A DNA stretch of 63,939 bases from Gemmatimonadaceae bacterium (GTDB lineage Bacteria; Gemmatimonadota; Gemmatimonadetes; Gemmatimonadales; Gemmatimonadaceae), in NCBI GenBank assembly GCA_025931335.1, contig JAICNG010000006.1:1-63939 (forward strand), written 5' to 3'. Position 1 is the first letter of the stretch. Each line of letters opens with the position of its first letter. Below the pieces are notes generated by a model. It made no database searches and was not told the origin of the DNA. It was given only the letters and a program-made list of their open reading frames with translations. Positions 538 through 61,270 of the stretch are shown here, piece after piece. Both the position numbers and the translations under genes were made by a program.

Positions 538-593
538 GGCCAGGGGCCAGCGGCCATGACCCCTACCCTGGGCCCGCTGGCTGGCCCCTGGCC
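538..593. repeat. Intercistronic inverted repeat, CAGGGGCCAG family
   Basis: The 14-bp arms 538-551 and 580-593 (GGCCAGGGGCCAGC and its complement) are perfect, with a 28-nt loop. The arms themselves iterate GGCCAGG/GGCCAG. It lies between the TolC gene stop (611) and the membrane-fusion start (506), with no U-tract. The same word family recurs at 19105-19195. Confidence 0.8.
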
Positions 594-610
594 CCTGGCG
601 CCTGACTCGC

Positions 611-1903
611 TCAAAGCGACCTGCCAACCAAAGCTTCCAGCTGCGCTTTGGCGATACGGTAATCGTAGCGCGCCTGGATCAACGCGGCGCGGGCGTTGTT
701 CAGCTCCGTTTGCGATGTCAGCAGATCGAGCAGCCGCGACGCACCCACCGCATACCGCTGTTGCTGCACACGCACGTCCTCCTCGGCGGCCGCCACGCTC
801 GCGCTCTGAATCGCGATGCGGGCTTCCGCGGTGCGGAGGGCGCCGAGGAACTGCGAGAGCTGCTGCTGGGCGCCGAACTGCGCGTCGCGAAGCGCCGCCG
901 AGGCGTTCGCTTCCTGCACGTCCGCGCTCACCCGCTGTTCCTCGCGGTTGAGCCGGTTGAACAGCGGATATGACGCGGTGAAGCGCAGATTGCTCGAATA
1001 GCGGAAGGGATCGTTCCATCCGTACCCCAGGTCATCGCCGTTCGACCCGCGCGAGTACGACATGCTGATCGTCGGGAAGTACGACGACCGCGCCGCCCGC
1101 TGGCTGGCGCGGGCCACCTGCCACTGCGCGGCCGCCTCACGAATCGCTGGCCCGTCGAGCGCGAGCCGCTCGAGGCTCGCGCTGTCGACCGCGATGGTCT
1201 GTGCGCCGAGCGCGTCTTCCGCCGGCGTGACGGGGAAGGGCGTCGCCACCAGGCGCGTCAACGTCGCCTCGGCGGTGCGAAGCGCGTTCTGCGCGGAGAT
1301 CAGTGCCAGCTGCGCGTTGCCGATCTGGATGACGGTGCGCAGCGAGTCGCTCTTCGTCGCCGCGCCGGCGGCCATCCGCGCCGTCGCGGTGCGCATCTGG
1401 AGCTGTGCCTCCTCGAGCTGCGTGCGAGCGGCGGCCTCGGACTCACGGGCCGCCAGGCCGTCGTAGTACGCCTGCTTTACGCTGAGGGCGATCTGGAAGC
1501 GCTGATCCACGTCGTTCGCTTCGGCCGCGTCCTGCTGTGCGCGCGCGCGTCGCAGCTCGTAGAACCGGGAGCCGCCGTCGAAGAGCTGGATGCTCATCGA
1601 CGCGCCCGCCGAGCTCGACCAGGGGGATTCGTCCCCCACCGGGCGGCCGGCCTGAATGGTCCGCGTGCCTCCTTCCCACGAGCGCGACATGTTCAGGTTC
1701 ACGTCGGGGAGGAACGATGCGTAGGCACCGCGGACGGTCGCATCGCTCGTGCGAAGCTGCCCGCGCGATTGCACGGCGCTTGGCGCGTTGCGCTGCGCAA
1801 GCTGCACGGCCTCGTCGAGCGTGATCGGCCGCGGCGCTTCCTGCGCGCTCGCGAGGCCGGTCCACGCGACGGCGGCGATCGCCAGATATCGAGTACGCGA
1901 CAT
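611..1903 (-). CDS. TolC-family outer membrane efflux protein
   Basis: This 430-residue protein is the outer-membrane channel of a tripartite efflux system. An N-terminal signal peptide ends TGLASAQ, and the mature start ITLDEAVQLAQRNAP is the classic TolC-family opening. Two OEP repeats follow, with long heptad-rich helices and a C-terminal SRLLDLLTSQTELNNAR motif. The start ATG at 1903 overlaps the upstream stop by 1 nt (TGATG), indicating translational coupling to the Spy-like gene. The in-frame extension upstream to 2437 is rejected because it would run through two better-supported genes. Confidence 0.92.
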   Translation of the reverse strand: MSRTRYLAIAAVAWTGLASAQEAPRPITLDEAVQLAQRNAPSAVQSRGQLRTSDATVRGAYASFLPDVNLNMSRSWEGGTRTIQAGRPVGDESPWSSSAGASMSIQLFDGGSRFYELRRARAQQDAAEANDVDQRFQIALSVKQAYYDGLAARESEAAARTQLEEAQLQMRTATARMAAGAATKSDSLRTVIQIGNAQLALISAQNALRTAEATLTRLVATPFPVTPAEDALGAQTIAVDSASLERLALDGPAIREAAAQWQVARASQRAARSSYFPTISMSYSRGSNGDDLGYGWNDPFRYSSNLRFTASYPLFNRLNREEQRVSADVQEANASAALRDAQFGAQQQLSQFLGALRTAEARIAIQSASVAAAEEDVRVQQQRYAVGASRLLDLLTSQTELNNARAALIQARYDYRIAKAQLEALVGRSL

Positions 1904-2274
1904 CACCTGGTCTTCTTCTCCTTCTCCGAGTCCTTTCGCGCGAGCAGCTCGTCGAACTGAGCGCGCTGCGCGTCGTTGAGCACGCGGCGGATCTGCTGCC
2001 GCGCCGTGTCGCGCACGGCGACCATCTGCGGCCGCACCGTCGAGATCACCGCGCGCATCTCGCGATGGCGCCGCTCGACGATGCTGTCCACCGCCGCCGA
2101 TTGCTCGGGCGTGAGGTGGAGCTCCTCCGTCAACCATGCGAACGATCGACGGTTGTCGCCGCTCTTCGCGCATCGGTCGCTGGTGAGCACCCGATCGGCG
2201 GTAAAGCCCAGCGCTCCTCCGACGAGAAGCGCGCCCAGCAGGAACATCAGCGCGAGACTTCGCGAGCGCTGCAT
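1903..2274 (-). CDS. Spy/CpxP/CnrX-like periplasmic LTxxQ protein
   Basis: This 123-residue protein has a hydrophobic N-terminus (residues 8-25) that anchors it in or exports it across the inner membrane. The rest is charged and helical, with the signature LTPEQ near residue 54 and RRHREMRAV near residue 69. Spy/CpxP/CnrX proteins act as periplasmic chaperones or metal sensors. Its position between a candidate anti-sigma gene and an efflux TolC gene favours a sensory role. The HREM group resembles, but does not exactly match, the His/Met ligand spacing of CnrX, so metal binding is inference. Confidence 0.75.
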   Translation of the reverse strand: MQRSRSLALMFLLGALLVGGALGFTADRVLTSDRCAKSGDNRRSFAWLTEELHLTPEQSAAVDSIVERRHREMRAVISTVRPQMVAVRDTARQQIRRVLNDAQRAQFDELLARKDSEKEKKTR

Positions 2275-2288
2275 GTCGTACTCCGAGT

Positions 2289-2648
2289 TTAGGGTTCGAT
2301 GACGTAGCGGAGGGTTGCCTCACGCCCGTCCGGTTCTGTGACTTCCGTGGCGACCCGAGCGGTATACGAGATCGGCGTTTCGAGCAGCGTCGCCATCTCG
2401 CGCGCTTCCACGTCGTGCGTTCGCACCAGCGCCGCACCGGTGATGAGCGCCGCCAGCGCGGCGGCGATCAGCCCCGCGCCGGTCCACCGCGCGAAGGGCG
2501 CCGTCCAGTCCTCGTCTTCGGCCAGACGCGCCAGCATGGTGGCCTCGAGCGCGCTCCAGTAGGCCGCGTCGTCCGGCGGCGCCAGCAACGCGCGCAGCGC
2601 CGCGGTGATCCGCGGATCCTCCGGCTCGATGTGATGACTGTCGATCAT
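2289..2648 (-). CDS. Small single-pass membrane protein, candidate anti-sigma factor
   Basis: This 119-residue product starts at ATG 2648, which overlaps the sigma-factor stop by 4 nt (ATGA), so the two are coupled. About 55 N-terminal cytoplasmic residues (acidic, PEDPRITAALRALLAPPDD) precede one transmembrane segment at about residues 59-78 and a periplasmic tail of about 40 residues. No HxxxCxxC zinc motif is present, so it is not a ZAS-type anti-sigma. Calling it an anti-sigma rests on topology and coupling only. The gene order matches cnrY/cnrX-type modules in concept. Confidence 0.6.
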   Translation of the reverse strand: MIDSHHIEPEDPRITAALRALLAPPDDAAYWSALEATMLARLAEDEDWTAPFARWTGAGLIAAALAALITGAALVRTHDVEAREMATLLETPISYTARVATEVTEPDGREATLRYVIEP

Positions 2649-3247: not shown

Positions 3248-3304
3248 CTACCAGACGTCCTGCATCACGTACGCGCCGCTCGGGCAAAACGTTGGGTGAT
3301 GACA

Positions 3305-3931: not shown

Positions 3932-3969
3932 GAGGGGGCGTGGGCGTTAGGGACGAAGGACCTCGACGC

Positions 3970-4575: not shown

Positions 4576-4656
4576 GGGAGGGAAGCGTCGAATGAAACGA
4601 CAGCGAGCGCAAGTCCGTAGTGATGCCCGTCAGGCGCACTTCACTCGGAGGGTGGC

Positions 4657-5097: not shown

Positions 5098-5196
5098 AAC
5101 CGCGGCCAGTCGTCCATTCCTGGGGTGCGCGTTGAGGCGGAGCGCGCGCCGGACGGCCGTCCACCCGCCCCGACAATTCAGATCGAGGTAGGAAAG

Positions 5197-5991: not shown

Positions 5992-6020
5992 ATCGACGGC
6001 GGAGAACGCCAGGGGCCACA

Positions 6021-6150
6021 CCCGAAGACGTCAGGGATCAGACGTCAGGTTTCGGAGTTCAGCAACGACTACGGGGAGCCAGTATCGGCTCCCCGTAGGT
6101 TTTTTTTTCTGATCACTGACATCTGACGTCTGATCCCTCACGTCTTCGGG
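6021..6150. repeat. Long inverted repeat, GACGTCAG family, enclosing a terminator
   Basis: Arms 6021-6048 and 6123-6150 pair over 28 bp with one mismatch. Each contains GACGTCAGGGATCAGACGTCAG, i.e. GACGTCAG iterated. A canonical terminator hairpin sits inside the loop. The element lies between the convergent SPFH-like gene and the small membrane protein gene. The word family recurs at 15394-15506 and 37891-38010. Confidence 0.9.
6069..6108. terminator. Intrinsic terminator
   Basis: A perfect 12-bp GC-rich stem (CTACGGGGAGCC / GGCTCCCCGTAG) has a 6-nt loop AGTATC and is followed one base later by nine T residues on the plus strand. It terminates the SPFH-like gene that ends at 5991. It is the only textbook stem-plus-U-tract terminator found in the window. 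Confidence 0.92.
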
Positions 6151-6158
6151 TGTTGATC

Positions 6159-6395: not shown

Positions 6396-6420
6396 GGGGT
6401 TCGAGTTTGGGTTCTGTGTC

Positions 6421-6497
6421 GGATTGCGGATTGCGGATTGCTGATTGCGGGTGCGGTTGTTCGCAATCCGCAGTCCGCAGTCAGCAATCAGCAATCG
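6421..6497. repeat. Inverted repeat, GGATTGC family
   Basis: The left arm (6421-6448) is four imperfect copies of GGATTGC. The right arm (about 6463-6497) has the complementary units GCAATCCGCAGTCC and GCAATCAGCAATC. It lies between the cyclophilin stop (6505) and the start of the small membrane protein (6395). The same words form a perfect hairpin at 24959-25020. Confidence 0.85.
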
Positions 6498-6504
6498 GGT
6501 GGCC

Positions 6505-7023: not shown

Positions 7024-7180
7024 GCAACGGCCCTCTTACCGCGGAGGACGCAGAGGACGCGGAGGATTGGCATCCGAAAACTTCAACGGCGGGCCTTTGC
7101 AAAGGCATTTGCAGTTGAATTCCACGGCCTGGCAATCCCTCTGCGTCCTCCGACGCCCTCTGCGGTAAAGAAGCCGTTGC
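7024..7180. repeat. Long imperfect inverted repeat, CCGCAGAGGACGC type
   Basis: Left arm 7024-7072 and right arm 7130-7180 pair over about 50 bp with some mismatches. The unit is a run of GCAGAGGACGC/GCGGAGG. The inner part holds the perfect palindrome GCCTTTGCAAAGGC. It lies between the endonuclease III stop (7203) and the cyclophilin start (6966). A related element with CCGCAGA and GCAACTGC words is at 17820-17969. Confidence 0.8.
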
Positions 7181-15519: not shown

Positions 15520-16422
15520 CTACACGAATCCCCTCGCGATCCTGACCGTCGCGAGATGAACCCCGACCGTCTCGCGAACGTCGACCCCATACCCTCCAGC
15601 GATCGTGACCGCGACGGGAATCCCGACTTCCCTGCACGCCTCGAGCACCATCGCGTCTCTCCGCTCCAGCCCCTCGAACGTCATCTTCAGTCGGCCTAGC
15701 CTGTCGCGCTCGTGCGGGTCGGCGCCGGCCAGATAGACTACCAGGTCCGGCCTCCCGTCGTTGAGCACGCGCGGCAGCGCACGGGCGAGCTGCTCGAGAT
15801 ACTCGTCGTCGCCGGTCCCATCCGGCAGCTCGATGTCGAGCGTCCCCGGCACCTTGTGAAAGGGATAGTTCCGGCTGCCGTGCATGCTGAAGGTGAAGGT
15901 CTCGGTGTCCCCGGCGAAGATCGCGTGCGTCCCGTTTCCCTGGTGCACGTCGAGGTCGATGATCGCGGCGCGGCCGATGAGGCCCTCCGCTCGTAAGGCG
16001 CGCACCGCGATCGCGACGTCGTTGAAGACGCAGAAGCCCTCGCCGCGATCGGCGAAGGCGTGGTGCGTGCCGCCGGCCAGGTTCATCGCCACGCCATCCT
16101 CGAGCGCTCGTCGGGTCGCGCCAAGGGTTCCGCCGACAGCGCGATACGAGCGCTCGACGAGCCCCCGCGACCAGGGGAAGCCGAGCAGCCTCAGCTCGGC
16201 GTCGGTGAGGGTGCCGCTCGTCAGGCGATCGATGTAGTCGCGCGTGTGCACGCGCGCGAGCTCCTCGACGGTCGCGCGGACGGGCTCATGCACGTTCGAG
16301 CGCGCGACCAGCCCCTCCGCGATCACGGCATCGCGGAGGAGCGCATACTTCTCGATTGGAAATCGATGTCCCGCGGGGAGCGGGAAGGTATAAGACGCCG
16401 AGCTCCACGCGTGGAGCGGCAC
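15520..16422 (-). CDS. Histone deacetylase-family zinc deacetylase
   Basis: This 300-residue arginase-fold deacetylase carries GGTHHAFADRGEGFCVFNDVA (tandem His and FCxFND), the zinc-binding IIDLDVHQGNGTHAIF, YLAGADPHERDRLGRL and the C-terminal TIAGGYG. Bacterial members deacetylate small molecules such as acetoin or polyamines rather than histones. The specific substrate is inference. The start is GTG at 16422 (MPLHAWSS). It lies 8 nt downstream of the amidohydrolase stop on the same strand and is probably in one transcript with it. Confidence 0.93.
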   Translation of the reverse strand: MPLHAWSSASYTFPLPAGHRFPIEKYALLRDAVIAEGLVARSNVHEPVRATVEELARVHTRDYIDRLTSGTLTDAELRLLGFPWSRGLVERSYRAVGGTLGATRRALEDGVAMNLAGGTHHAFADRGEGFCVFNDVAIAVRALRAEGLIGRAAIIDLDVHQGNGTHAIFAGDTETFTFSMHGSRNYPFHKVPGTLDIELPDGTGDDEYLEQLARALPRVLNDGRPDLVVYLAGADPHERDRLGRLKMTFEGLERRDAMVLEACREVGIPVAVTIAGGYGVDVRETVGVHLATVRIARGFV

Positions 16423-17819: not shown

Positions 17820-17969
17820 GGAACCGCAGATGGCCGCAGAAACTGCAACTGCAACGTGCGGCCACACGTGGAGCCTTCCACGGGCCGCGAATCACCTGCG
17901 TCCCCGCGTTCATCTGCGGCCAAGAAAGCCGTTGCAGTTTCTGCGGCCTTCTGCGGCATCTGCGGTTCC
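17820..17969. repeat. Long inverted repeat, ACCGCAGA/GCAACTGC type
   Basis: The left arm (from 17820) reads GGAACCGCAGATGGCCGCAG then AAACTGCAACTGCAAC. The right arm (17931-17969) is its complement with one extra GCCTTCTGCGG unit, showing that arms gain or lose units. It lies between the TPR gene stop (17981) and the amidohydrolase start (17774). Confidence 0.82.
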
Positions 17970-17980: not shown

Positions 17981-19144
17981 TCACGGTGCTCCGCCCTCGA
18001 GCCCTGCGAGCCGCCGCGTCGCGAGCGCGCGGTTCTGGGCGTTGCGCGCCGCGCGAGCCAGGTAGGTGCGATACGCCGCCCGTGCTGAATCCGCCTGCTG
18101 GGCCAGCTCGTGCGCGCTCGCCTTGAACACGTACGACTCGGCGTAGTAGGGCTCCAGCGCGATCGCCTTGTTGAACTGGTCGAGGGCCTCTTGCGCACGC
18201 TTGGCCTTGAGGAGCGCCACGGCGTACTGATGGCGATAGATGGCGTCCGCCGGCGCGAGATCCACCGCCTGCGCGTACGAGGCGAGGGCGGCCTGGCGCT
18301 GGCCGGCGGCCTCGGAAAGCGCGCCGAGCGCGATGTGCGCGGGCGCGTACGCAAGATCCTCGGTGAGCGCGCGCTCGAACGCCTCCCGCGCTGCCTGACG
18401 GTTCCCGCGCGCGCCCTCGAGCTGGCCGATCGCGAACTCGTAGAAGGCCTTCGATTCGTATTCGCGGACAAGCGCCTTCTCACTCTCCTCGACCGCGCGC
18501 GCCTTGGCCAGCAGCGCCGTCATCTCCGTGAGCGCGCTGTCGTACTGCTTGAACGAGACGAAGAGGACGGCGCGGATGTATCGCAGGCGATAGTACCGGT
18601 CCGGCCGCTGCGAGATCGCCTTCCCGAAGAGCTCGTTCGCCTGCTCGAACTTCTGATTGGCGTACGCGATCCAGGCCTTCGTCAGCACGTCGGCGCGCCA
18701 ACCGCCGGGAAGCGCATCGTAGAGCGACATCTCGATCGCGCGATGCACGAACGGGTTTCGCAGGAATGCGCGGCTCACCGTCGAATCCGCGGCGCGGACG
18801 TCGCGCGCCGTGAGCACCTTCTCGCTGTTCTCGAGGTAGAGCGCGAACCGGGGGACGTCCTGAAGGTGAAACGCGACCCACTGCGCGTAGAGCGGATCAC
18901 CGCTCCATGGGGCGAGTCGTGCGGCCCAGTAGAACGCGCTGTACGCCCGCCCCGGGAATCGCTGCAGGTTCGCGATGCCGTAGTCGTAGTACGCTTCCCA
19001 GTCGTTCGTGTCGGCCCTGGAGTCGAGCTTCGGGCGACGAATTTCCTGGCTCCCCGCGGGCATGGCGGAGGCGAAGGCGACGAACAGCACCGCACAGAGG
19101 AGCCGGGTCAGGGGCCAAGGGCCAAGGGCCAGGGGGCGGGTCAC
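17981..19144 (-). CDS. TPR-repeat protein, exported
   Basis: This 387-residue protein has at least six tetratricopeptide-like helical pairs. Examples are NQKFEQANELFGKAISQRPD, GNRQAAREAFERALTEDLAYA, GQRQAALASYAQAVDLAP, ALLKAKRAQEALDQFNKAIA and LEPYYAESYVFKASAHELA. TPRs mediate protein-protein contacts. A hydrophobic N-terminus (RLLCAVLFVAFASAMPAGSQ) suggests export. Start is uncertain: GTG 19144 places PLALGPWPLTR, encoded by the hairpin at 19105-19195, before the signal sequence, while a later GTG would start inside it. Longer readings toward 19897 run over the M28 gene and are rejected. Confidence 0.8.
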   Translation of the reverse strand: MTRPLALGPWPLTRLLCAVLFVAFASAMPAGSQEIRRPKLDSRADTNDWEAYYDYGIANLQRFPGRAYSAFYWAARLAPWSGDPLYAQWVAFHLQDVPRFALYLENSEKVLTARDVRAADSTVSRAFLRNPFVHRAIEMSLYDALPGGWRADVLTKAWIAYANQKFEQANELFGKAISQRPDRYYRLRYIRAVLFVSFKQYDSALTEMTALLAKARAVEESEKALVREYESKAFYEFAIGQLEGARGNRQAAREAFERALTEDLAYAPAHIALGALSEAAGQRQAALASYAQAVDLAPADAIYRHQYAVALLKAKRAQEALDQFNKAIALEPYYAESYVFKASAHELAQQADSARAAYRTYLARAARNAQNRALATRRLAGLEGGAP

Positions 19145-19195
19145 GGGACCCACCCTCGACCCACCCCATGGCCCCTGGCCCCTGGCTCCTGACCC
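19105..19195. repeat. Inverted repeat, CAGGGGCCAG family, overlapping a gene start
   Basis: The left arm (GGGTCAGGGGCCAAGGGCCA and AGGGCCAGGGGG) pairs with right-arm CATGGCCCCTGGCCCCTGGC and TCCTGACCC. It spans the probable start of the TPR gene (19144) and ends 6 bp before the M28 stop (19201). The same unit forms the element at 538-593. Confidence 0.82.
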
Positions 19196-23339: not shown

Positions 23340-24959
23340 ATGGATCACTCGACGACCTTCGCCCGACACTTCGCGCGACTCGTGCACCTCTTGCTGCACG
23401 AGCCGAAGAACATCGCGAATCAGAAGGCGGCCCTCCGCCTGCTGGTGGCGATGTCGAAGGAGGGGGAGGTCCGGCTCGCGCTGCAGGACTGGCAGGTCGT
23501 GGCGAACGGGACCCTGCTTCCTCCTCAGCTCGAGGGGGTGGAGGACCTGGGGGCCCAGCTCATCGGGCACGCGGTCACCGAGCTGGTGGCACAGCAGGGT
23601 GCGTCGCCCGCCGACCTCCTGGGGATTGCCCGCACACTGGCGACGGAGCCGGTTCCCGGCGACGGCGGCCGCAACGTCGCCGACAAGCTCTCGGCGCTCG
23701 GCGCGAAGACGGTGCGGGTGACGCTGTCCGGCAACGCGCCCCTTCCGCGCGTTGCGACCGCGTCCATGCCCACGCACGGTTCGGACGTGCAGGCGACAGT
23801 TCCCAAGCCGGCGACGAATGGCGGCAGCCGCAACACGGGGGACGTGGCCGTGGTCGCGAAGACCGATGCGCCGCCGGAGCGTCGCCCATCGACGGAGCTG
23901 AGGGTGATGCACGGCCTCACCGACAGCTACCTGTCGCAGTTCGCCGCGCCCGATACCTCGAGGGGATCGATCTCGAGCGGGTTCGCGCAGCTCGACGCGA
24001 CCATCAGCGTGACCGAGACGACGAAGCTCCTCGACGGTGTCGCCGGGGGAGCGGAGGCGGCGTTCCGCGAGGGAGACGCGGAGGCGCTCGGCATCGCCAT
24101 GGCGGGCATCGTCAAGCGTGAGGCGGCCGCAACCGACTCGAACCTCCGTCGCGCGTACGGAATGGCGCTGCGCCGGCTCGCCAAGAAGCCGATGCTGGCG
24201 GCGGTCGCGGCGCTGCTGTCGTCGCACCGTGAGATGTACGACGACCTGTTCACGGTTTTCGCGCGCACCGGCGATGACGGCGCGGAGGCGCTCATCGAGC
24301 AGCTCAACGCCGCGCAGTCACTGGCCCAGCGTCGCGTGTACTTCGATTCGCTGCGCAAGCTGAACGCCGGCGTCCAGGTGCTCATCCACATGCTTGGCGA
24401 CTCGCGCTGGTACGTCGTGCGCAACGCGGCCGACCTCCTGGGCGAGATGGCGGCGAACGACGCCGAGCCGAAGCTGAGCGAGCTGCTCCAGCATGAGGAC
24501 GACCGCGTGCGAAAGGCGGCGGTGTCCGCGCTCTCGAAGATGACCGGCTCCGGCGCGGTGAAGGGACTGGCCGCCTCGCTCGATGACGGCGCTCCGGGTG
24601 TGCGCATGCGCGCCGCGGCCGCCCTCGGCGGCGCGAAGACCCCCGCCGCGGCAGCCGCCCTGATCAAGCACCTCGATCGCGAGGATGCAGCGGAAGTGCA
24701 GCACGCCTGCCTGGCGGCGTTAGGGAAGATCGCCTCCGGGGATGCGATCCGATTTCTGACGAAGGCCGCTCAGCCCGCGGGCGGGCTCTTCAACAAGAAG
24801 AAGGCGACCGCCTACCGGGTCGCCGCCGTGCGCGCGTTAGGCGAGGCGCGCACCCCCGCCGCGATGGGCGCCCTCCAGAACCTGCTCCACGACAAGGAGA
24901 AGGATGTGCGCGAGGCGGTGTTCTGGGCGGTCCGCGCTGGTAAGGGGGAGGCCGAGTAG
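23340..24959 (+). CDS. HEAT-repeat protein
   Basis: This 539-residue soluble protein has an N-terminal helical region (1-110) and a Thr/Pro/Asn-rich linker (about 130-190). A C-terminal array of at least five HEAT/PBS-lyase-like repeats runs from about 330 to 535: DSRWYVVRNAADLLGEMA, EDDRVRKAAVSALSKM, GAPGVRMRAAAALGG, DAAEVQHACLAALGKIA and EKDVREAVFWAVRAG. HEAT arrays are scaffolds, and no enzymatic motif is seen. It follows the ATPase gene by 50 bp with no obvious ribosome-binding site. Its stop codon lies in the first base triplet of an inverted repeat. Confidence 0.83.
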   Translation: MDHSTTFARHFARLVHLLLHEPKNIANQKAALRLLVAMSKEGEVRLALQDWQVVANGTLLPPQLEGVEDLGAQLIGHAVTELVAQQGASPADLLGIARTLATEPVPGDGGRNVADKLSALGAKTVRVTLSGNAPLPRVATASMPTHGSDVQATVPKPATNGGSRNTGDVAVVAKTDAPPERRPSTELRVMHGLTDSYLSQFAAPDTSRGSISSGFAQLDATISVTETTKLLDGVAGGAEAAFREGDAEALGIAMAGIVKREAAATDSNLRRAYGMALRRLAKKPMLAAVAALLSSHREMYDDLFTVFARTGDDGAEALIEQLNAAQSLAQRRVYFDSLRKLNAGVQVLIHMLGDSRWYVVRNAADLLGEMAANDAEPKLSELLQHEDDRVRKAAVSALSKMTGSGAVKGLAASLDDGAPGVRMRAAAALGGAKTPAAAAALIKHLDREDAAEVQHACLAALGKIASGDAIRFLTKAAQPAGGLFNKKKATAYRVAAVRALGEARTPAAMGALQNLLHDKEKDVREAVFWAVRAGKGEAE

Positions 24960-25020
24960 GACTGCGGATTGCGGATTGCTGATTGCGAATGAACAGCCGG
25001 CAATCCGCAATCCGCAGTCC
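24959..25020. repeat. Perfect 21-bp inverted repeat, GGATTGC family
   Basis: Arms 24959-24979 and 25000-25020 are exact complements (GGACTGCGGATTGCGGATTG and one further base) with a 20-nt loop holding another GATTGC unit. The first base is the last base of the HEAT-gene stop codon. It lies between the convergent HEAT and M42 genes. It belongs to the same family as 6421-6497. Confidence 0.93.
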
Positions 25021-28517: not shown

Positions 28518-28732
28518 ACGCCGGCTACACCACAGAGGGGTCGACGGGATCGAAGGGGTCGAAGGGATCAACGGGATGGAAAGGCGCCGCGGCAACGCCG
28601 CGGCGCTCATCTGATGAGCGCGTCTGCCGCGAAGCGGCGACGCGCCTTCCCGCCCCCTCGATCCCGTCGATCCCTTGATCCCGTCGATCCCGCGGTGGCC
28701 GTTCTCTGTGCTACCGCTGTCAGGGCTCGTTG
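28505..28732. repeat. Very long imperfect inverted repeat between convergent genes, GGGATCGA and CAACGAGCC words
   Basis: Arms of about 110 nt pair around the centre GCGCTCAT-CTG-ATGAGCGC (28602-28621). Outer ends both begin CAACGAGCC, then (T)ACACCACAGAG/TAGCACAGAG, then runs of GGGATCGAAGGGGTCGA units. The left end encodes the last residues and stop of the RNase gene, and the right end does the same for the BtuF-like gene on the other strand. Confidence 0.9.
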
Positions 28733-31873: not shown

Positions 31874-33217
31874 ATGAACCCGTTCCGTCTCTCGCGTTTC
31901 GCGTTCCCCGCGCTCCTCGTCGCGTCCGCGGCGCTGGCCCAGGGCGCCCCCACCCCAACCGCCGCCGATCTCGGCGCGGCCCGCGCGGCGCAACTTCTCG
32001 AGCTGCTGCCCGATGGCGAGGAGAAACGGCGATTCGTCCTCGACTGCACCGGCTGCCACACCTTCGACGCGCGCACCGCCGCGCCAGGCGGCCGCGCGCG
32101 CACCCGCGCGCAGTGGGACTCGGCCGCACACCGCATGCTGAGCTACGCCGGCGCGACGTCCGGCTTTCCCGTCATCGCCGCCGCCCGAGAGCCGGCGACG
32201 ACGGCCGAGTGGCTCGCGCGGTGGATCACCGATTCGTCGCTGGCGACGATCGCGCCCGCGCCGCCTCGCGTAACTCCGAACGTGCGCGAGTACCTGATGC
32301 CGATGGCGCAGGACCTTCCGCATGACGTCGCCGTCGATGCCGACGGCAAGGTCGTCATCACCGGGATGTTCTCTCACACGATGTACCTGCTCGATCCCGC
32401 CAGCGGCGCGATGGACCCGGTCGCCATCCCCGCCGACCGCGCCAGCCCGCGCGCCATCGTGATCGACGATCGCGGCGCCTGGTGGGTGCTGCTCGGCGGA
32501 CCGCGTCGCATCGCCCGGCGCGATCCAGTTCTCGGCGCATGGACGATGCACGACATCGGGATGTATCCGCACAGCATCGGCGTCGATCCCGCCGGTCGCG
32601 TCTGGTTCAACGGCCACTTCACCCGCGATCCGGAGCAGATCGGGTTTCTCGATCCAACCACCGGCTCGATCACGCTGCGTGACGTGCCGCCGCATCCGGT
32701 GCTGGCGAAGGTCGCTGGCGGCCCCATCCCGTACGAGCTGCGCGTCGCCCCCGATGGCGCGGTGTGGATCTCCGAGCTCGGCGGCAACCGGCTCGTGAGG
32801 CACGATCCGGCGGCGAACACGTTCCGCGCGTTCGACATGCCCACACCACACTCCGGCCCGCGGCGATTCGACATCGACGCGGCGGGGATGCTGTGGATTC
32901 CCGAGTACGCGGGTGGAAAGCTCACGCGTCTCGATCCGGCCACGGGCCGATTCACGCAATGGGATCTGCCGGTGCGGAACGCCGCGCCATACGTCGTGCG
33001 TGTCGACCGTCAGCGCGGCGACCTGTGGATTGGCACCGGCGCCGCGGACGCCGTGTTCCGCTTCGATCCGAGAACCGCGCAGTTCACGACGTACGACCTC
33101 CCGACGCGCGGCGCGCTCGTGAGGCACCTCGACATCGACCCGCGCACCGGGGCGGTGTGGGTGGCGTACGGCGCGAGCCCGGGAGTGCCGGCGCGGGTGG
33201 CGAGGATAGAACCTTGA
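31874..33217 (+). CDS. Periplasmic beta-propeller (virginiamycin B lyase-like) with N-terminal CxxCH heme motif
   Basis: This 447-residue protein has a signal peptide (LLVASAALAQ), an N-terminal domain with the c-type heme motif CTGCH (near residue 60), and then a Vgb/SMP-30-like propeller. Propeller blades repeat LPHDVAVDADGKVVITG, SPRAIVIDDRGAWWVL, YPHSIGVDPAGRVWFNG, ELRVAPDGAVWISEL, RFDIDAAGMLWIPEY and LDIDPRTGAVWVAY. A single heme plus propeller suggests a redox or quinoprotein-like periplasmic enzyme rather than antibiotic lyase (inference). It is divergent from the amidohydrolase operon, 112 bp apart. Confidence 0.87.
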   Translation: MNPFRLSRFAFPALLVASAALAQGAPTPTAADLGAARAAQLLELLPDGEEKRRFVLDCTGCHTFDARTAAPGGRARTRAQWDSAAHRMLSYAGATSGFPVIAAAREPATTAEWLARWITDSSLATIAPAPPRVTPNVREYLMPMAQDLPHDVAVDADGKVVITGMFSHTMYLLDPASGAMDPVAIPADRASPRAIVIDDRGAWWVLLGGPRRIARRDPVLGAWTMHDIGMYPHSIGVDPAGRVWFNGHFTRDPEQIGFLDPTTGSITLRDVPPHPVLAKVAGGPIPYELRVAPDGAVWISELGGNRLVRHDPAANTFRAFDMPTPHSGPRRFDIDAAGMLWIPEYAGGKLTRLDPATGRFTQWDLPVRNAAPYVVRVDRQRGDLWIGTGAADAVFRFDPRTAQFTTYDLPTRGALVRHLDIDPRTGAVWVAYGASPGVPARVARIEP

Positions 33218-33228
33218 ACCCCGGGGTC

Positions 33229-33328
33229 GTGAGGATCGAAGGGGTCAACGGGATCGAGGGCGCTGGGGAAGATCTCGACCATTCGCCCCTTGGATCCCAT
33301 CGATCCCGTCGATTCCTTCGACCCCTTC
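33229..33328. repeat. Inverted repeat, GGGATCGA family
   Basis: The left arm GAGGATCGAAGGGGTCAACG, continuing GGATCGAGGG, pairs with a right arm made of GGATCCCATCGATCCCGTCG plus ATTCCTTCGACCCC. It lies between the propeller stop (33217) and the next start (33343). The right arm runs directly into the AGGAAGGAG ribosome-binding site of the next gene. Confidence 0.8.
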
Positions 33329-33342
33329 AGGAAGGAGCTCCC

Positions 33343-33855
33343 ATGAGACCTGCATCGTCGACGATCGCGATTCTCCTTGCGCTCGCCGCTGCGCCCATCG
33401 ATGCGCAGACGCGGCCGCCGGCGTGCACGCGCGCCGAGCACCGTCAATTCGACTTCTGGTTAGGCGAGTGGGACGTGACCCTGCCGAATGGGCGGCCGGC
33501 GGGGATCAATCGCATCCAGTCCATCAACGGTGGGTGCGCGCTGCGGGAGGAATGGAAAGGCGCTGGTGGCGGGACGGGCACCAGCCTCAACGCGTTCGAC
33601 GCGACCACGGGGCGGTGGCACCAGACCTGGGTCGGCAGCGACGGGATGGTGCTGTTCCTCGACGGCGGCCTGCGCGACGGCGCGATGGAGCTCTCCGGCA
33701 CGACCACTGGCGCCGACGGGACGAAGACGCTTCACCGAATTCGATGGACCCAGCTCGGCGGCACGCCAGCCGCGGTGCGACAACTGTGGGAGAGCTCGAC
33801 CGACGGCGGGAAGACGTGGACGGTGGCGTTCGACGGGAAGTACGTGAAGAAGTGA
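33343..33855 (+). CDS. Secreted DUF1579-like protein
   Basis: This 170-residue protein has a signal peptide (ALAAAPIDAQT). The conserved HRQFDFWLGEWDVTLPNG opening, GGCALREEWKG, WHQTWVGSDGMVLFLDGG and KTLHRIRWTQL pattern is typical of the secreted DUF1579-type beta-barrel found in Gemmatimonadota and Bacteroidota. Function unknown. The start ATG 33343 has AGGAAGGAG upstream. The gene is bracketed by two GGGATCGA-family inverted repeats. Confidence 0.83.
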   Translation: MRPASSTIAILLALAAAPIDAQTRPPACTRAEHRQFDFWLGEWDVTLPNGRPAGINRIQSINGGCALREEWKGAGGGTGTSLNAFDATTGRWHQTWVGSDGMVLFLDGGLRDGAMELSGTTTGADGTKTLHRIRWTQLGGTPAAVRQLWESSTDGGKTWTVAFDGKYVKK

Positions 33856-33860: not shown

Positions 33861-33953
33861 GGGGCAAAGGCATCAAAGGGGTCGAGGGGATCAAGGGCGG
33901 AGGCGTGGAGTCTCACACGCCGCCCGTGATCCCCGGATCCCTCGATCCCGAGG
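33861..33953. repeat. Inverted repeat, GGGATCGA family, between convergent genes
   Basis: The left arm (GGCATCAAAGGGGTCGAGGG and GATCAAGGGCGG) pairs imperfectly with the right arm (CGCCCGTGATCCCCGGATCC and CTCGATCCCGAGG). It covers the 3' end and stop (33913) of the minus-strand membrane protein, whose last codons (GSRDPGITGGV) are encoded in the arm. Confidence 0.75.
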
Positions 33954-35931: not shown

Positions 35932-36522
35932 GTGAGCCCACGCCCTCGCACCGTCACCGACGACGACATCCTCGCCGCGACCGCCCGCGCGATGTCGAAG
36001 GTCCCTCCCACGCGGTTCACGCTGGCGGAGGTGGCGCGCGAGGTGGGGCTCGCCCCCGCGACGCTGTTGCAGCGATTCGGATCGAAGCGGGGGCTGCTGC
36101 TCGCCCTGTCGGCGCAGTCGGCGGCCAGTATGGACGCGTGCTTCGACATGGTGCGTCAGGCGCACTCGTCGCCGCTCGAGGCCTTGTTCGACGCCGCCAC
36201 GCAGATGGCGCGCTTCAGCGTGACGCCGGAGGAGCTGGCGAATTCGATCGCCTACCTCCAGATCGATCTCAGCGATCCGGATTTCCACCAGCACATCCTC
36301 ACGAGCTCCCGCGCGACCCAGCGCGGCTATGCGGCGCTGCTCGACGATGCCGTCGAGGCCGGTGAGCTCGCTGCGTGCGACACGAAGCGCCTCGCGCGAG
36401 CGGTCGAGGCGGTCGCGGCCGGCTCCCTCATTGGATGGGCGATTCATCGAAAGGGCAAGGCGGAAGCGTGGGTGCGGAGCGACCTGGAGACGCTGTTGAC
36501 GCCGTACGAACGCGGGCGCTAA
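35932..36522 (+). CDS. TetR-family transcriptional repressor
   Basis: This 196-residue regulator has an N-terminal HTH (TVTDDDILAATARAM, FTLAEVAREVGLAPATLLQRFGSKRGLLLAL) and a C-terminal ligand-binding helical domain ending TLLTPYERGR. The preferred start is GTG 35932. The ATG at 35908 lies inside the operator and would add 8 residues encoded by operator DNA. It is divergent from the SDR operon with two palindromic sites between them, indicating autoregulation and control of the SDR genes. The inducer is unknown. Confidence 0.88.
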   Translation: MSPRPRTVTDDDILAATARAMSKVPPTRFTLAEVAREVGLAPATLLQRFGSKRGLLLALSAQSAASMDACFDMVRQAHSSPLEALFDAATQMARFSVTPEELANSIAYLQIDLSDPDFHQHILTSSRATQRGYAALLDDAVEAGELAACDTKRLARAVEAVAAGSLIGWAIHRKGKAEAWVRSDLETLLTPYERGR

Positions 36523-36570
36523 GGGCGCTGGGAAAGCGCTAAGAGCGCTGGCCCTGCGCTGTTCCCAGCG
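36513..36570. repeat. Inverted repeat, GCGCTGG family, overlapping two convergent stops
   Basis: It iterates GGGCGCTAAGGGCGCTGGGA, AAGCGCTAAGAGCGCTGG. CGCTGGGAA (36526-36534) pairs with TTCCCAGCG (36562-36570). It contains the TetR stop TAA (36520-36522) and the acetyltransferase stop (36539-36541), each within a GCGCTAAG unit. Confidence 0.75.
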
Positions 36571-37120
36571 TGCGAATCACCTTGCAGGGATTGCCCGCCG
36601 CGATCACACCCGACGGCACGTCTCGCGACACGACGCTCCCGGCGCCGATCGTCGTGTCATCGCCGATGGTGACGCCGGGAAGCACGATGGCGCCCCCGCC
36701 GATCCATACGCGCTTGCCGATCGTGATGGGCTTGGCGAGCTCCGGCCCGGCCACCCGGGCGCCCGCCTCACGAGGGTGATCGGCCGTGTAGAGCTGCACG
36801 CAGGGGCCCAGTTGCGTTTGCGCGCCAATGCGGATGGGCGCGGGATCCAGCATGACGCACGCGAAGTTGATGAAGACGTCCTCTCCGAGCTCGATCTGCG
36901 TTCCGTAGTCGCAATAGAACGGCGGCTCGATCCAGGCCCCCGGTCCGATCGCGCCAAGCAGGTCGACGAGAATCGCGATCCGCTCCGTCGCGTGCTCCGG
37001 CGAGGATGCGTTGAGCTTCATCCAGAGCAGCCGCGCCCGCTGTCGTGCGCCGACGAGCACGGGGTCGGAGGCGAGATACAGCTCGCCCCGCAGCATCTTC
37101 GCGCGCTCGGTGTCGGACAT
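36539..37120 (-). CDS. Maltose/galactoside O-acetyltransferase-family protein
   Basis: This 193-residue left-handed beta-helix acetyltransferase has the N-terminal Mac domain (SDTERAKMLRGELYLASDPVL) and hexapeptide coils. Catalytic and substrate features are IEPPFYCDYGTQIELGEDVFINFACVMLD, LYTADHP (catalytic His), ITIGKRVWIGGGAIVLPGVTIG and GAGSVVSRDVPSGVIAAGNPCKVIR. It transfers acetyl from acetyl-CoA to a sugar hydroxyl. Residues QGQRS at the C-terminus come from a GCGCTGG inverted repeat. The start ATG 37120 (MSDTERAK) matches the family. Confidence 0.93.
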   Translation of the reverse strand: MSDTERAKMLRGELYLASDPVLVGARQRARLLWMKLNASSPEHATERIAILVDLLGAIGPGAWIEPPFYCDYGTQIELGEDVFINFACVMLDPAPIRIGAQTQLGPCVQLYTADHPREAGARVAGPELAKPITIGKRVWIGGGAIVLPGVTIGDDTTIGAGSVVSRDVPSGVIAAGNPCKVIRTLGTAQGQRS

Positions 37121-37138
37121 GGGAGGGAAGATACGGAG

Positions 37139-37231
37139 GCGCTGGAAAAGCGCTAAGGGCGCTCGAAAAGCGCTGAGGGAGGGGCCAGGGTTCCCAGCGC
37201 GTTCCCAGCGCCCTTAACGCTTTTCCAGCGC
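37139..37231. repeat. Inverted repeat, GCGCTGG family
   Basis: The left arm GCGCTGGAAAAGCGCTAAGG, continuing GCGCTCGAAAAGCGCT, pairs with a right arm CAGCGCGTTCCCAGCGCCCT plus TAACGCTTTTCCAGCGC with few mismatches. The right arm encodes the last residues and stop of the DJ-1-like gene (KALEKR-stop, ends 37214). It lies between that gene and the acetyltransferase start. Confidence 0.88.
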
Positions 37232-37867
37232 TTTCGTACCTTCCACCGCCGCGGTCGCACGCATCAACTCCGCGAAGTACTCCGGTTTGCGCGTCGAGAA
37301 GAGCCCGTACCACGCCTCGAGCACGTCCGGCGCGTAGAGGTCGAGCCGACGGTAGATGTGGTAGGCGAACTCGAGGGGTGCCATCGACGCGGCGGTAATG
37401 ACGTCGCCATCGGTGACCGCGGGCTCCTCCTGATAGAGGTCGCCTCCCCGATAGCCGGTGGCCGCGATGTACTCGCGCGCGTTGCTGGTGTGACGAACTG
37501 CATCGAGCAGCCCGCCGCGCGCGAGGCCGGCGGTCGCGCCACAGATCGCGGCCACCGGCACGCCGCTCGCGAGAAACTCCCGCGCCTTCTCGACGGCATC
37601 GGTATTGCCGCCCTCGTCCCACGTATCACCGCCGGGCAGGATGAGCATGTGACTCTCCGACGGCGAAAGCTCCTCGAGCGTGAGGTCGGGAATGATCCGC
37701 ACGCCCCCCGCGGTGACGATCGCCTCGCGCCGCGGCCCCACGGTGCGTACTCGCCACTGGTTAGGCACCCGGTGGAACTGCGTGGTGTTGATGCCGGCGA
37801 CGGCAAAGCCGTGCTCCCAGTCGGCCAGGGTATCGAAGACGAAGCAGTGCACGGTTAATCCGCTCAT
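37214..37867 (-). CDS. DJ-1/PfpI-family protein
   Basis: This 217-residue protein has the class-I glutamine-amidotransferase-like fold. The nucleophile region is VPVAAICGATAGLARGGLL (Cys near residue 109), preceded by LILPGGDTWDEGG with a Glu/Asp support. VHCFVFDTLADWEHGFAV opens the sheet. Members act as chaperones, glyoxalases or stress proteases, and no specific activity is assigned. The C-terminal KALEKR is supplied by the adjoining inverted repeat. Confidence 0.88.
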   Translation of the reverse strand: MSGLTVHCFVFDTLADWEHGFAVAGINTTQFHRVPNQWRVRTVGPRREAIVTAGGVRIIPDLTLEELSPSESHMLILPGGDTWDEGGNTDAVEKAREFLASGVPVAAICGATAGLARGGLLDAVRHTSNAREYIAATGYRGGDLYQEEPAVTDGDVITAASMAPLEFAYHIYRRLDLYAPDVLEAWYGLFSTRKPEYFAELMRATAAVEGTKALEKR

Positions 37868-37890
37868 ACAGCCTCACACAGGGGTCATGG

Positions 37891-38010
37891 GCAACGTCCG
37901 CAGACGTCAGGTCTCAGGTGTCAGTGTGCAGAAACGGCAACAGCCCGTGCGTTTCGACGTCTCTGCTACCTGACACCTGACGTCTGATCCCCGACGTCTG
38001 CCGACGTTGC
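37891..38010. repeat. Long inverted repeat, GACGTCAG family
   Basis: The left arm GCAACGTCCGCAGACGTCAG, continuing GTCTCAGGTGTCAG, pairs with a right arm CTGACACCTGACGTCTGATC plus CCCGACGTCTGCCGACGTTGC. The right arm has one extra 7-bp unit. It lies between the lipoprotein stop (38016) and the DJ-1-like start (37867). It is almost the same text as the 15394-15506 element, though unlinked. Confidence 0.88.
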
Positions 38011-38015
38011 CTCGT

Positions 38016-50066: not shown

Positions 50067-50157
50067 ATGAGGAATGAGGGCGGAGGAGTGAGCAAATCGA
50101 TGGAGGGCGACGCGTCGCCCGATCGAGCTTCCTCACTCCTCAGTCCTCGCTCCTCAT
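50067..50157. repeat. Inverted repeat, GAGGAGTGAG family, with palindromic centre
   Basis: The left arm ATGAGGAATGAGGGCGGAGG, continuing AGTGAG, pairs with the right arm CTCACTCCTCAGTCCTCGCT plus CCTCAT. The centre GGGCGACGCGTCGCCC is a perfect 16-bp palindrome. It is the same family as 14716-14774. It lies between the membrane-protein stop (50168) and the lipoprotein start (50040). Confidence 0.85.
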
Positions 50158-52845: not shown

Positions 52846-52940
52846 GTGAGGATCGGGGTGGCGGGTTCGCGAGAGGCGGGGTGGGCGCGCCTAATCTACG
52901 GGTGGCGGGGCGGGGCGCGACCCCTGAGAGGTTCTTGCCG

Positions 52941-53087
52941 CAACGAGCCCTGAGAGCAGTTACACAGAGAGCACAGAGAGCGGCCACAGAGAGCACAGAG
53001 AACGGCGAACTGCGCTTGGCAGTTCGGCGTTCTCTGTCTCTCTGTGGCCGTTCTCTGTGTCTTCTGTGCTACTGCTGCTACGGCTCG
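52941..53087. repeat. Long inverted repeat, CAACGAGCC/ACACAGAG family, between divergent genes
   Basis: About 70-nt arms (CAACGAGCCCTGAGAGCAGT, TACACAGAGAGCACAGAGAG, CGGCCACAGAGAGCACAGAG, AACGGCGAACTGC) pair around CGAACTGCGCTTGGCAGTTCG. It lies between the divergent AGCS and membrane-protein genes. The same end words (CAACGAGCCCTGA and ACACAGAG) form elements at 28505-28732 and 60617-60682. Confidence 0.88.
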
Positions 53088-53279
53088 TGGCGCATAGAGC
53101 TTTCTCTACCGCACCCGGCCTCACGGACATCGCCGCGACGCCGGGCCACCGAGCGCCCTGTTGATGCGCCGGACGCAGGGTGATCTGACCCACTTCCTCC
53201 TCACATCCCTCTGCGATTCCGTCGACTCCATCAAACGCTCTGCCGAGGGACGGCTCAGCCAGAGTGCAGGAAAGGACGC
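53088..53279. other. Intergenic, no feature seen
   Basis: This stretch between the long inverted repeat and the promoter-operator of the XRE pair holds no convincing gene. Short ORFs here have no ribosome-binding site or family likeness. Confidence 0.6.
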
Positions 53280-54401: not shown

Positions 54402-54981
54402 CGCATGATCGGGCTGGGGTTTCGGTGTCTGTCCCAGGGTAACGCCATCGCCGCGAGGCTGTCAACCACTTCGCGTCGTTTCGTGTAATCGTTAGGCAGG
54501 GGCGCACTGGCGCACGCCGACCCCGTTCCCCCCGGGGATGGCGCCGTCCGAGGAACGCACGTTTTAGGGTTGGCGACGCGAGCGACGGCGCCGAGCTCGA
54601 CCTGCCGGTGGACGGGCCGCCGGCAATTCGGCGGCGAGCATTGTCGAATTTGCGCGGCGCCGTTCGACGAAGTGGTGTGGGACGGATTGTCACGAAACGA
54701 AGTGGGCGGGAGCGACCAGGAACAAGCCAAGGCCGGAGTCGGTTGGTGCAGGTATGAATAGTCGGCATTACTTCGAGCCTGGGTTTCGAGTGCGGGCGCC
54801 TAAGAAGCGCGAGGGGCGCTGGAAGAGCGCTGGAAGACCTTTACGCACACATAGTTAGCGCTTTCCCAGCGCCCTCAGCGCGCTTCCAGCGCCGTCGTTC
54901 GTCATCCCTTGCCCCACATCTGTTTCGGTTTATGTTCGGGTTCCTTGCAGTCCGGAAAACTGAGCTCCCGAGGGAACGCTG
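54402..54981. other. Intergenic region upstream of the RND operon
   Basis: About 580 bp without a convincing gene. It contains the GCGCTGG inverted repeat at 54796-54893 and the leader of the RND gene. Short ORFs here are judged chance. Confidence 0.6.
54796..54893. repeat. Inverted repeat, GCGCTGG family, between divergent genes
   Basis: The left arm (GCGCCTAAGAAGCGCGAGGG and GCGCTGGAAGAGCGCT) pairs with the right arm (AGCGCTTTCCCAGCGCCCTC plus AGCGCGCTTCCAGCGCC). Same family as 36513-36570 and 37139-37231, but here upstream of a plus-strand gene and behind a minus-strand start. Confidence 0.8.
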
Positions 54982-60601: not shown

Positions 60602-60616
60602 GTTGTGGGTTCATCA

Positions 60617-60682
60617 CGCAACGGGCCCTGACAGCGGTTACACAGAGTGTCCTCTGTGTAACCGCTGTCAGGGCTCGTTGCG
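60617..60682. repeat. 31-bp inverted repeat with 4-nt loop, CAACGAGCC/ACACAGAG family
   Basis: Arms 60617-60647 and 60652-60682 pair over 31 bp with one mismatch. The arms contain CCCTGACAGCGGTTACACAG. It lies between the convergent adaptor gene and a small membrane protein, whose last codons and stop (RNEP-stop, ends 60668) are inside the right arm. Confidence 0.95.
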
Positions 60683-60952
60683 AGACCGACCGCGACTCTG
60701 GTCTGACGGCTCGTCGGTGTCCTCGATCTCGATGATGTAGGCCGGCAGCTTCCCGGTCGACATGAGCCACAGCATCACGCCGACCAGCGCGAAGACGATC
60801 GTCACTACGGCCCATCCCACGAGACCGAGCTCGTCTCGCCCAGAGGGCGTTGCGAACGCCGAGTAAGTGATGAACGCCCACATCAGCAGGATGACAGGCA
60901 GAATCACCCGCGGGATCCATCGCGGCAGGTACGCCTTCATCTTCTTCGCCAT
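60668..60952 (-). CDS. Small membrane protein of unknown function (94 aa)
   Basis: This 94-residue protein has two transmembrane segments (PRVILPVILLMWAFITYSAFA, LGLVGWAVVTIVFALVGVMLW) and a cytoplasmic acidic C-terminal tail (EIEDTDEPSDQSRGRSRNEP). The C-terminal RNEP and the stop come from the inverted-repeat arm. Start ATG 60952 (MAKKMKAYLPRW) is plausible. Function unknown. Confidence 0.6.
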   Translation of the reverse strand: MAKKMKAYLPRWIPRVILPVILLMWAFITYSAFATPSGRDELGLVGWAVVTIVFALVGVMLWLMSTGKLPAYIIEIEDTDEPSDQSRGRSRNEP

Positions 60953-61066
60953 GCGGCCCTCCGATATGGATTACCGTCGCAGTCGGTCACCAGCGCTGGT
61001 CGAGGATTCCCTCGAGCACCTCGAGACATCAGAGTTCTCCTTGTCGCCCGACGAGCCCATGGCATT
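60953..61066. other. Short intergenic segment, no feature seen
   Basis: This is the 5' leader of the small membrane protein gene on the minus strand. No promoter-like or operator-like sequence was recognised beyond the neighbouring inverted repeat. Confidence 0.5.
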
Positions 61067-61270
61067 CCGGCATCCAAGTTCAAAGGACATACGGATGCAG
61101 CCGATACAGCGAATCCGGCGGATTGCTCCCGGCGGCGATCACCGTCCTCGCCCACCCCAAAGGAATTGCCTCTTGCTCCTGTAGAGGAGGGATCAATGCG
61201 CCAGGTGCGATCCGCCGGATCCGTTGCATCCGCGGCATCCGCGTCCCCCCTTTGAACTTGGATGCCCGGG
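61067..61270. repeat. Long inverted repeat, GGATGC/GATCCGCCGG words
   Basis: The left arm CCGGCATCCAAGTTCAAAGG, then CATACGGATGCAGCC, pairs with a right arm containing CCCTTTGAACTTGGATGCCCGG, CGCGGCATCCGCG and GATCCGCCGGATCCG, about 66 bp in each arm. It lies between the S9 peptidase stop (61276) and the small membrane protein gene. No second copy of this word family is in the window. Confidence 0.85.

Follow-up and report, generated by a model that had tools for sequence, protein, structure and literature searches.

Repetitive extragenic palindromes (REPs) are high-copy intergenic hairpins that lie beside stop codons, chiefly where the neighbouring genes are convergent or in tandem (PMC3733652), and they reportedly make RNA 3' ends more stable but do not bring about termination (PMC13289151). 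In Geobacter metallireducens, sites of classes 1 to 3 consist of three to five tandem 7-8-mers in inverted pairs on opposite strands, with variable spacing in classes 1 and 2, and have been read as possible IHF/HU sites (PMC2700814), and in Neisseria a genome-wide DNA uptake sequence (DUS) also occurs in inverted pairs, which there act as terminators (PMC2397512). Here we report on long hairpins built from repeated short words that recur between the genes of a Gemmatimonadaceae bacterium, starting from a window of 63,939 nucleotides (positions 1 to 63,939 of contig JAICNG010000006.1, our contig C67) in its draft genome, G000, which comprises 3.73 Mb in 189 contigs and is 81% complete. The hairpins were compared with those of a sister species in the same genus (G001) and of Gemmatirosa (G017), a member of the same family with a contig that agrees, throughout the 6,000 bases compared, with plasmid NZ_CP007129.1 of Gemmatirosa kalamazoonensis, and the comparison with the sister species suggests that the shape and place of a hairpin outweigh its letters.

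These elements resemble REPs, as well as bacterial interspersed mosaic elements (BIMEs) and REP doublets forming hairpins (REPINs), in being placed just downstream of genes, but they differ in that their arms are longer and consist of iterated words, each genome has about a dozen word families, and the place is kept while the word is exchanged between species. The tags found at REP feet were scarce, GTAG being present in 19 and CGTC in 13 of 235 intergenic elements in comparison to 5 and 35 in a control taken 60 bp further out, and the PF01797 profile for the REP-associated tyrosine transposase (RAYT, Y1) had no match in G000, Gemmatirosa or G002, one each in G001 and G016, and three in G004. 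The likeness to the Geobacter sites is one of general layout only, tandem 7-8-mers in inverted pairs, although the class 3 word MTYCTGA resembles, by eye, the TCAGAAT dialect of G001; the available account in PMC2700814 describes no gene-end rule and no exchange of words across species. Like intrinsic terminators the hairpins stand directly after genes, and some of them enclose a U-tract terminator, but most have no U-tract, their arms reach 72 bp and they show no G-U bias, while G-U is the most frequent intermediate in the terminators of Bacillus cereus (PMC5381666). The Neisseria DUS is one short word, whereas here there are many words, which are rarely found inside genes. No account of gene-end word exchange between species was found in the open literature, which is weak evidence of absence since subscription journals mostly lay outside its scope, and none of six word strings was found when sought as text in papers.

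Presence of the hairpins in the window and genome

Inverted repeats (IRs) were located by an ungapped scan with scoring +1/-2 and a loop of up to 120, in which overlapping repeats are not reportable, and an element is an IR with a score of at least 13 unless another threshold is given. The long word-repeat hairpins were confirmed to be real. The window contains 22 such IRs in comparison to 1, 1, 1, 1 and 4 in five Markov shuffles, and 13 IRs with a score of at least 16, in comparison to none in the shuffles, where no score exceeded 15. The first-pass annotation had listed twenty hairpins, and 18 of them are among the 22 IRs, the other four (at 3233, 37454, 50784 and 53961) being additional; of the remaining two, 33861 falls just short with a score of 12 and 36513 is weak, with a score of 9 and a folding z of -1.1. 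The element at 538 has an IR score of 15 yet a folding z of just -1.6, and the other 18 listed elements have z values of -2.0 to -9.8. The hairpin placed by the annotation at 61067 is present, with better coordinates of 61092-61241, and the gene contexts given by the annotation (seven convergent, ten tandem and three divergent) were recounted as 8, 9 and 3. The recurrence of words between loci that it had noted was confirmed: with the reversed word as the control in word counts, GACGTCAGNNGTCAG occurs 78 times in the assembly in comparison to 0 for its reversal, and 12 named word families recur in the 0.66 Mb (665 kb, 91% coding) sampled from G000.

The same excess was found outside the window. 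Twenty G000 stretches picked for the GACGTCAG word (370,350 bases) contained 76 IRs with a score of at least 15 in comparison to 0 in one shuffle, and twenty stretches drawn without regard to words (230,913 bases) contained 32 with a score of at least 15 and 45 with a score of at least 13, several of the 45 lying inside genes and resembling chance hairpins. The unselected stretches and the window together (295 kb) contained 67 elements, in comparison to 6 in one shuffle of the same DNA; extrapolating from the 51 with a score of at least 15, we infer about 600 elements genome-wide. Some of the breaks in the G000 assembly appear to coincide with elements. The elements of the window are as follows.

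539..599, strand., hairpin with the word GGGGCCA; IR score 15; CGAACTG words at the same gene end in G001
6018..6153, strand., hairpin with the word GACGTCAG, enclosing a U-tract terminator at 6069-6098; IR score 28
6429..6496, strand., hairpin with the word GGATTGC; IR score 16; G001 ortholog with GGACTGC/GAACTGC
7042..7152, strand., hairpin with the word CGCAGAGGA; IR score 15; score-14 hairpin in G001
14715..14775, strand., hairpin with the word GAGGACT between divergent genes; IR score 27; G001 ortholog with GAACGAGG
15389..15511, strand., hairpin with the word GACGTCAG; IR score 37
17824..17956, strand., hairpin with the words CCGCAGA and AACTGC; IR score 23; ortholog in G001
19105..19195, strand., hairpin with the word GGGCCAA; IR score 23; orthologous site in G001 empty
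24959..25020, strand., hairpin with the word GGATTGC, filling a convergent gap; IR score 21; GAGGAACGAGG words in G001
28536..28675, strand., hairpin with the word GGGATCGAA and a composite three-hairpin core with centre CATCTGATGA; IR score 17
33236..33321, strand., hairpin with the word GGGATCGAA; IR score 13; in G001, a GGGGTCCTC hairpin after the same upstream gene (by eye)
33861..33945, strand., weaker hairpin with the words GGGGTCGAG/GGGATCAAG; IR score 12, z -2.5
36513..36600, strand., weak or eroded hairpin with the word GCGCTGG; IR score 9, z -1.1
37126..37244, strand., hairpin with the word GCGCTGGAAAA; IR score 29; only a short 9-bp hairpin in G001
37890..38011, strand., hairpin with the word GACGTCAG; IR score 17; GGAGTCA words in G001
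50067..50157, strand., hairpin with the word GAGGAATGAGG; IR score 14
52939..53092, strand., hairpin with the word CACAGAGAG; IR score 22
54815..54893, strand., hairpin with the word GCGCTGGAA; IR score 15
60617..60682, strand., hairpin with the word CACAGAG, outer ends resembling those of 52939; IR score 28
61092..61241, strand., hairpin of the GGATGC type with its core; IR score 19

Placement at gene ends

Placement was determined for gaps of at least 60 bp in 434 kb of G000 and 728 kb of G001, with a purpose-written gene caller as the sole source of genes; most of the 434 kb had been picked for hairpin words, and the unselected subset was also counted separately. In G000, elements were found in 26 of 30 convergent, 51 of 93 tandem and 5 of 37 divergent gaps, and in G001 in 42 of 60, 68 of 155 and 13 of 71, respectively (7/13, 10/23 and 3/15 on contig C136 alone). 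The unselected G000 stretches gave 7/11, 19/45 and 5/24 on their own, and 13/17, 27/59 and 8/32 together with the window. In tandem gaps, the element starts at a median of 11 bp (G000) and 6.5 bp (G001) past the upstream stop and lies a median of 54 bp and 46.5 bp before the next start, and it is closer to the upstream stop in 41 of 51 and 59 of 68 cases, respectively.

Convergent gaps with zero, one and two elements numbered 8, 29 and 4 in G000 (n=41) and 18, 42 and 0 in G001 (n=60), an occupancy more even than Poisson (variance/mean 0.32 and 0.31), to which the shortness of the gaps and the inability of the scan to report overlapping repeats contribute; eroded arrays or an ordinary hairpin are still visible in several of the convergent gaps that have no scored element. 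Of 10 tRNA genes, four have an element no more than 16 bp from the 3' end and one has it on the 5' side at a distance of 54 bp, so that the rule covers transcript ends and not stop codons alone. A canonical U-tract terminator was present in 4 of 33 convergent and 3 of 70 tandem regions with an element in G000 (1/8 and 3/68 without one), and in 4 of 42 and 7 of 68 in G001 (2/18 and 1/87 without one), the window element at 6021 belonging to this minority. The annotation's statement that the hairpins lack U-tracts is thus mostly right, and its view that they are not ordinary terminators is fair, though a minority enclose one, as at 6069-6098.

Conservation of place and exchange of words

The comparison of orthologous spaces proposed by the annotation could be made for 61 of 277 G000 gaps (at least 40 bp) that were pairable with available G001 sequence, the mean flank identity being 83%. 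A hairpin with a score of at least 13 was present in both species in 19 pairs, in G000 only in 8, in G001 only in 4 and in neither in 30 (p 3.3e-6); the corresponding counts were 21, 8, 3 and 29 at a threshold of 12, and 15, 9, 5 and 32 at a threshold of 15 (p 1.7e-4). Among convergent and tandem gaps, G001 has a hairpin with a score of at least 9 in 21 of 24 where G000 has an element, in comparison to 5 of 8 where G000 scores 9-12 and 2 of 12 where it scores below 9.

Even though the place is shared, the words were judged by eye to be different in 8 of the 19 shared loci (window 557, 24959 and 37867; L034:11109; L039:12350; L040:15764; L041:12220; L175:9516). At window 24959 the hairpin occupies all the space from one stop codon to the other in each species, with GGATTGC in G000 and GAGGAACGAGG arrays in G001; at window 37867 the words of both species contain GTCAG; and between L175:9516-9654 and L111:4712-4862 a three-hairpin core is common but inverted relative to the flanking genes, and the arm words differ. 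In 17 of the 19 loci each arm is closer, on both sides, to a paralog in its own genome than to its ortholog, a test which sets the best of many paralogs against one ortholog, yet gaps such as 49 vs 17 are large. The two exceptions are L183:11962, where the two species have the same ordinary hairpin letter for letter, and window 17774, with a tie on the G000 side. Between the 665 kb of G000 and the 728 kb of G001 the sets of words are different, with 48 vs 0 for the GGGCCA dimer, 33 vs 1 for GGGATCGAA, 3 vs 68 for GGAGTCA and 0 vs 33 for GAACTGC.

Three further observations concern individual window elements. Those at 52939-53092 and 60617-60682, both of the CACAGAG type, have similar outer ends (CGCAACGRGCCCTGA...) with many word units in one and almost none in the other. 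Between window 33217-33855 and C24:27574-28130 of G001, the gene that follows the 33236 hairpin has the opposite orientation in G001, with a hairpin at the junction. A phage origin was considered for the element at 15380-15520 and rejected, as a search of 50,697 phage records gave no match at E 1e-5.

Structure of the elements

The hairpins are built from a repeated word of 6-9 letters. The 181 arms of at least 24 nt from both species are imperfect tandem arrays with a best period of 7 in 114 and of 9 in 48, and their median periodic identity is 0.64 in comparison to 0.41 after shuffling. Thirteen word families were named across G000 and G001, of which 12 are present in the G000 sample, while 23 elements in G000 and 30 in G001 have no family label, and the label of GGAGTCA is pooled with that of GACGTCAG in G001; eleven word-dimer patterns gave 197 matches outside coding sequence and 24 inside it in the G000 sample.

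Among intergenic elements with a score of at least 15, the 5' arm carries the purine-rich strand of the word in 114 of 117 cases in G000 and 112 of 118 in G001, the GGGTCCTC family accounting for five of the six G001 elements that break the polarity; in a control of 62 short hairpins, 38 were above one half and 22 below. Through the symmetry of an inverted repeat this polarity is the same on both strands, so that a transcript from either side meets the purine-rich arm first and the pyrimidine-rich arm second. Pyrimidine RNA on purine DNA is the weaker kind of hybrid, and for this reason the pyrimidine-rich 3' arm might favour release of the transcript without a U-tract, which we offer as a suggestion and not as a result.

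Some loops contain an ordinary terminator, e.g., 6069-6098, and others a composite core consisting of GGAAAGG, hairpin A, TCATCWGATGA, hairpin B and CCTTTCC. Twenty-five such cores were found by their centre (6 in G000 and 19 in G001), in both orientations and within GGGATCGAA, GGGCCA or GGAGTCA arms. In an alignment of 22 of them (L170:4170, L085:13475 and L131:19263 being omitted), with pairing counted for hairpin A and the centre only, 97.4% of positions were paired in comparison to 31-55% in slid controls, with 43 doubly changed cells vs 15.8 after shuffling and a covariation of 0.319 vs 0.075; the number of pairs with a double change was 6 and not unusual (5.0 in shuffles, 123 of 500 of which reach 6). 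Several core hairpins (window 28608, L084, L111 and others) have three-base loops of GAA or TTC in a GCGAAGC/GCTTCGC context, which we take to be an unusually stable DNA mini-hairpin. Inspection by eye of the listed copies, up to 14 per family, showed a shared core in GGATGC (in either orientation), GAATGAC and CATCWGATGA, and none in GGATTGC, GAGGAATGAGG, GGTGCTCGA and GCGCT.

Distribution in other genomes

The word GACGTCAGNNGTCAG was found 78 times in G000, 33 times in G001 and 0-2 times in each of the remaining 58 relatives, a range that the reversed control gave there as well. Among 150 genomes of the phylum, CGCAGAGGACGCAGAGG occurs 225 times in Gemmatirosa, 18 times in G001, 13 times in G116 and twice in G079, and in none of the remaining 146, G000 included; the only matches of its reversed control were 8 in G012. 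A 100 kb sample of Gemmatirosa picked around its own word, with other words than those of G000, had elements in 7 of 9 convergent, 9 of 18 tandem and 2 of 12 divergent gaps. The corresponding counts, in the same order, were 2/4, 4/8 and 0/8 for G116; 1/5, 1/17 and 0/8 for G050 and 2/2, 1/12 and 0/4 for G038, both with words of their own; and 4/8, 1/38 and 1/18 for G002, G004, G005, G012 and G030 pooled, where the arms are short and not visibly word-built.

The 19-mer ACCGCAGAGGACGCAGAGG, of which G000 has no exact copy, was matched in at least 119 stretches of the collected genomes, in comparison to about 2 expected from length (257 billion bases, both strands, composition ignored), and the matches listed include Cyanobacteria, Acidobacteria, Planctomycetota, Chloroflexi, Verrucomicrobia, several proteobacterial classes and others. 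When the first match was taken in each of 80 of the at least 119 loci, 25 were within an IR with a score of at least 13, and a crude open reading frame (ORF) rule placed 14 in convergent, 29 in tandem and 8 in divergent gaps, 22 in ORFs and 7 at edges. With such a word in many phyla, the hairpin system may have an early origin and a broad distribution, or else its words may pass from one phylum to another. In several cyanobacteria (L223, L250, L256, L262 and L276), the CGCAGAGGACGCAGAGG word adjoins or falls within a small repeat whose ends resemble AGGACTTACGCA and TGCGTAAGTCCT, and it looks as if it were carried there by an element like a miniature inverted-repeat transposable element (MITE).

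Interpretation and alternative explanations

We consider it somewhat probable, on the strength of the sequence comparisons, that the elements are REP-like hairpins of transcript ends, each locus retaining a hairpin as the sequence spreads from one locus to another. An RNA-end role would fit the gene-end place, the even occupancy and the conserved place, and on these points the annotation's proposal of RNA-stability or processing hairpins is supported, with the lack of a sense-strand G-U bias standing against it. The hairpin would close the transcript 3' end, either by helping RNA polymerase stop or by blocking 3'-to-5' exonucleases after a Rho-dependent ending, in the manner of REP-like capping, and since an inverted repeat is identical on both strands, one element could serve both convergent genes. 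The words would spread by copying from other gene ends, through template switching, ectopic gene conversion or a hairpin-borne mobile element, and with selection retaining some hairpin at the locus, the sequence would turn over while the structure stays. A Rho profile matched over its cut-off in G001, G002, G016 and G017 and only below it in G004 and G000, the best G000 match reaching 449.7 bits over positions 63-411 of 415; loss of Rho cannot be claimed for a genome that is 81% complete, and as G001 shows that the genus has Rho, termination and REP-like capping of Rho-ended transcripts are equally possible. The sub-cut-off matches in G000 are at C77:24060-25124 and C76:6491-7264, and the four genomes with a match over the cut-off each carry a similar second one below it.

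A number of results weigh against this reading. An RNA hairpin selected on one strand should show a G-U bias, so its absence from the arm mismatches of tandem gaps (67 sense and 64 antisense in G000, 48 and 46 in G001; by element, 46 leaning each way and 53 neither) counts against one-strand RNA selection; copying of arms between loci of both orientations could erase the bias, though the result still stands in opposition to a simple terminator reading. Most elements have no U-tract, and divergent gaps also contain elements (5/37 and 13/71 in the two species, 8/32 in the unselected stretches with the window). The G001 stretches were mostly picked for containing hairpin words, and G016 departs from the rule, with elements in 2 of 6 convergent, 6 of 15 tandem and 4 of 6 divergent gaps. 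The place test was not significant for convergent gaps alone (both, G000 only, G001 only and neither 5/1/1/2, n=9, p 0.23) or divergent gaps alone (2/1/2/12, n=17, p 0.12), and the difference between operon-internal and operon-end gaps could yield part of the association. Gain or loss that leaves no hairpin also exists (19105; L183:4274). Finally, REPs, which are thought to be mobile, sit likewise beside stop codons, so that position alone is no proof of function.

This last point leads to the alternative that the elements are selfish dispersed repeats, REP- or MITE-like, tolerated at gene ends, the shared occupancy arising as both species fill the only harmless places, which we regard as unlikely yet worth serious attention. 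The annotation had proposed a non-autonomous mobile family, and the spread of words within genomes, the GGATGC and GAATGAC cores, which by eye resemble small transposon relics, the either-way orientation of the former and the occurrence of composite cores within three different arm words agree with it. About a dozen word families, convergent occupancy more even than Poisson, the alternation of different families at one place, a place kept better than sequence, the scarcity of REP feet and the lack of a Y1/RAYT match in Gemmatirosa and in the 81% of G000 available, though the sister G001 has one, argue the other way. The absence of G-U bias would be expected if a DNA process keeps the arms paired, and template switching has been published as creating and maintaining hairpins (PMC8794818); a replication by-product in which template switching makes or corrects gene-end hairpins and slippage expands words, with no function, nevertheless seems improbable to us, as it leaves the gene-end placement, the even occupancy and one word at dozens of loci unexplained.

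Binding by a nucleoid protein or global regulator, the proposal made for the much similar paired sites of G. metallireducens (PMC2700814), is a very improbable explanation in view of the roughly one dozen word families per genome and of the way in which one word takes the place of another at a given site. A single nucleoid or repair protein that reads sequence, also suggested by the annotation, is unlikely where one locus can have different words. The genome-specific words and their inverted pairs at gene ends have a parallel in the uptake sequences of Neisseria (PMC2397512). The elements here show many words and no single dialect, and although 91% is coding, few matches are in coding sequence (24 of 221 in G000 and 6 of 153 in G001). 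Genes are rich in true uptake words, and we give an uptake function the least credence of all.

Conclusions

Beyond the transcript-end reading itself, we tentatively raise the possibility of a genome-wide punctuation, in which gene ends would need a hairpin and not a sequence, and competing word families would spread across the genome, overwrite each other at fixed addresses and drift into species dialects. If this is true, structure would be conserved without sequence across a whole bacterial genome, which would amount to a natural experiment on the requirements of a transcript end and would require some means of copying hairpin arms from one locus to another that uses no known transposase. 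It might also bear on the tandem-heptamer families of Geobacter, and motif- or alignment-based terminator finders would be likely to miss such gene ends.

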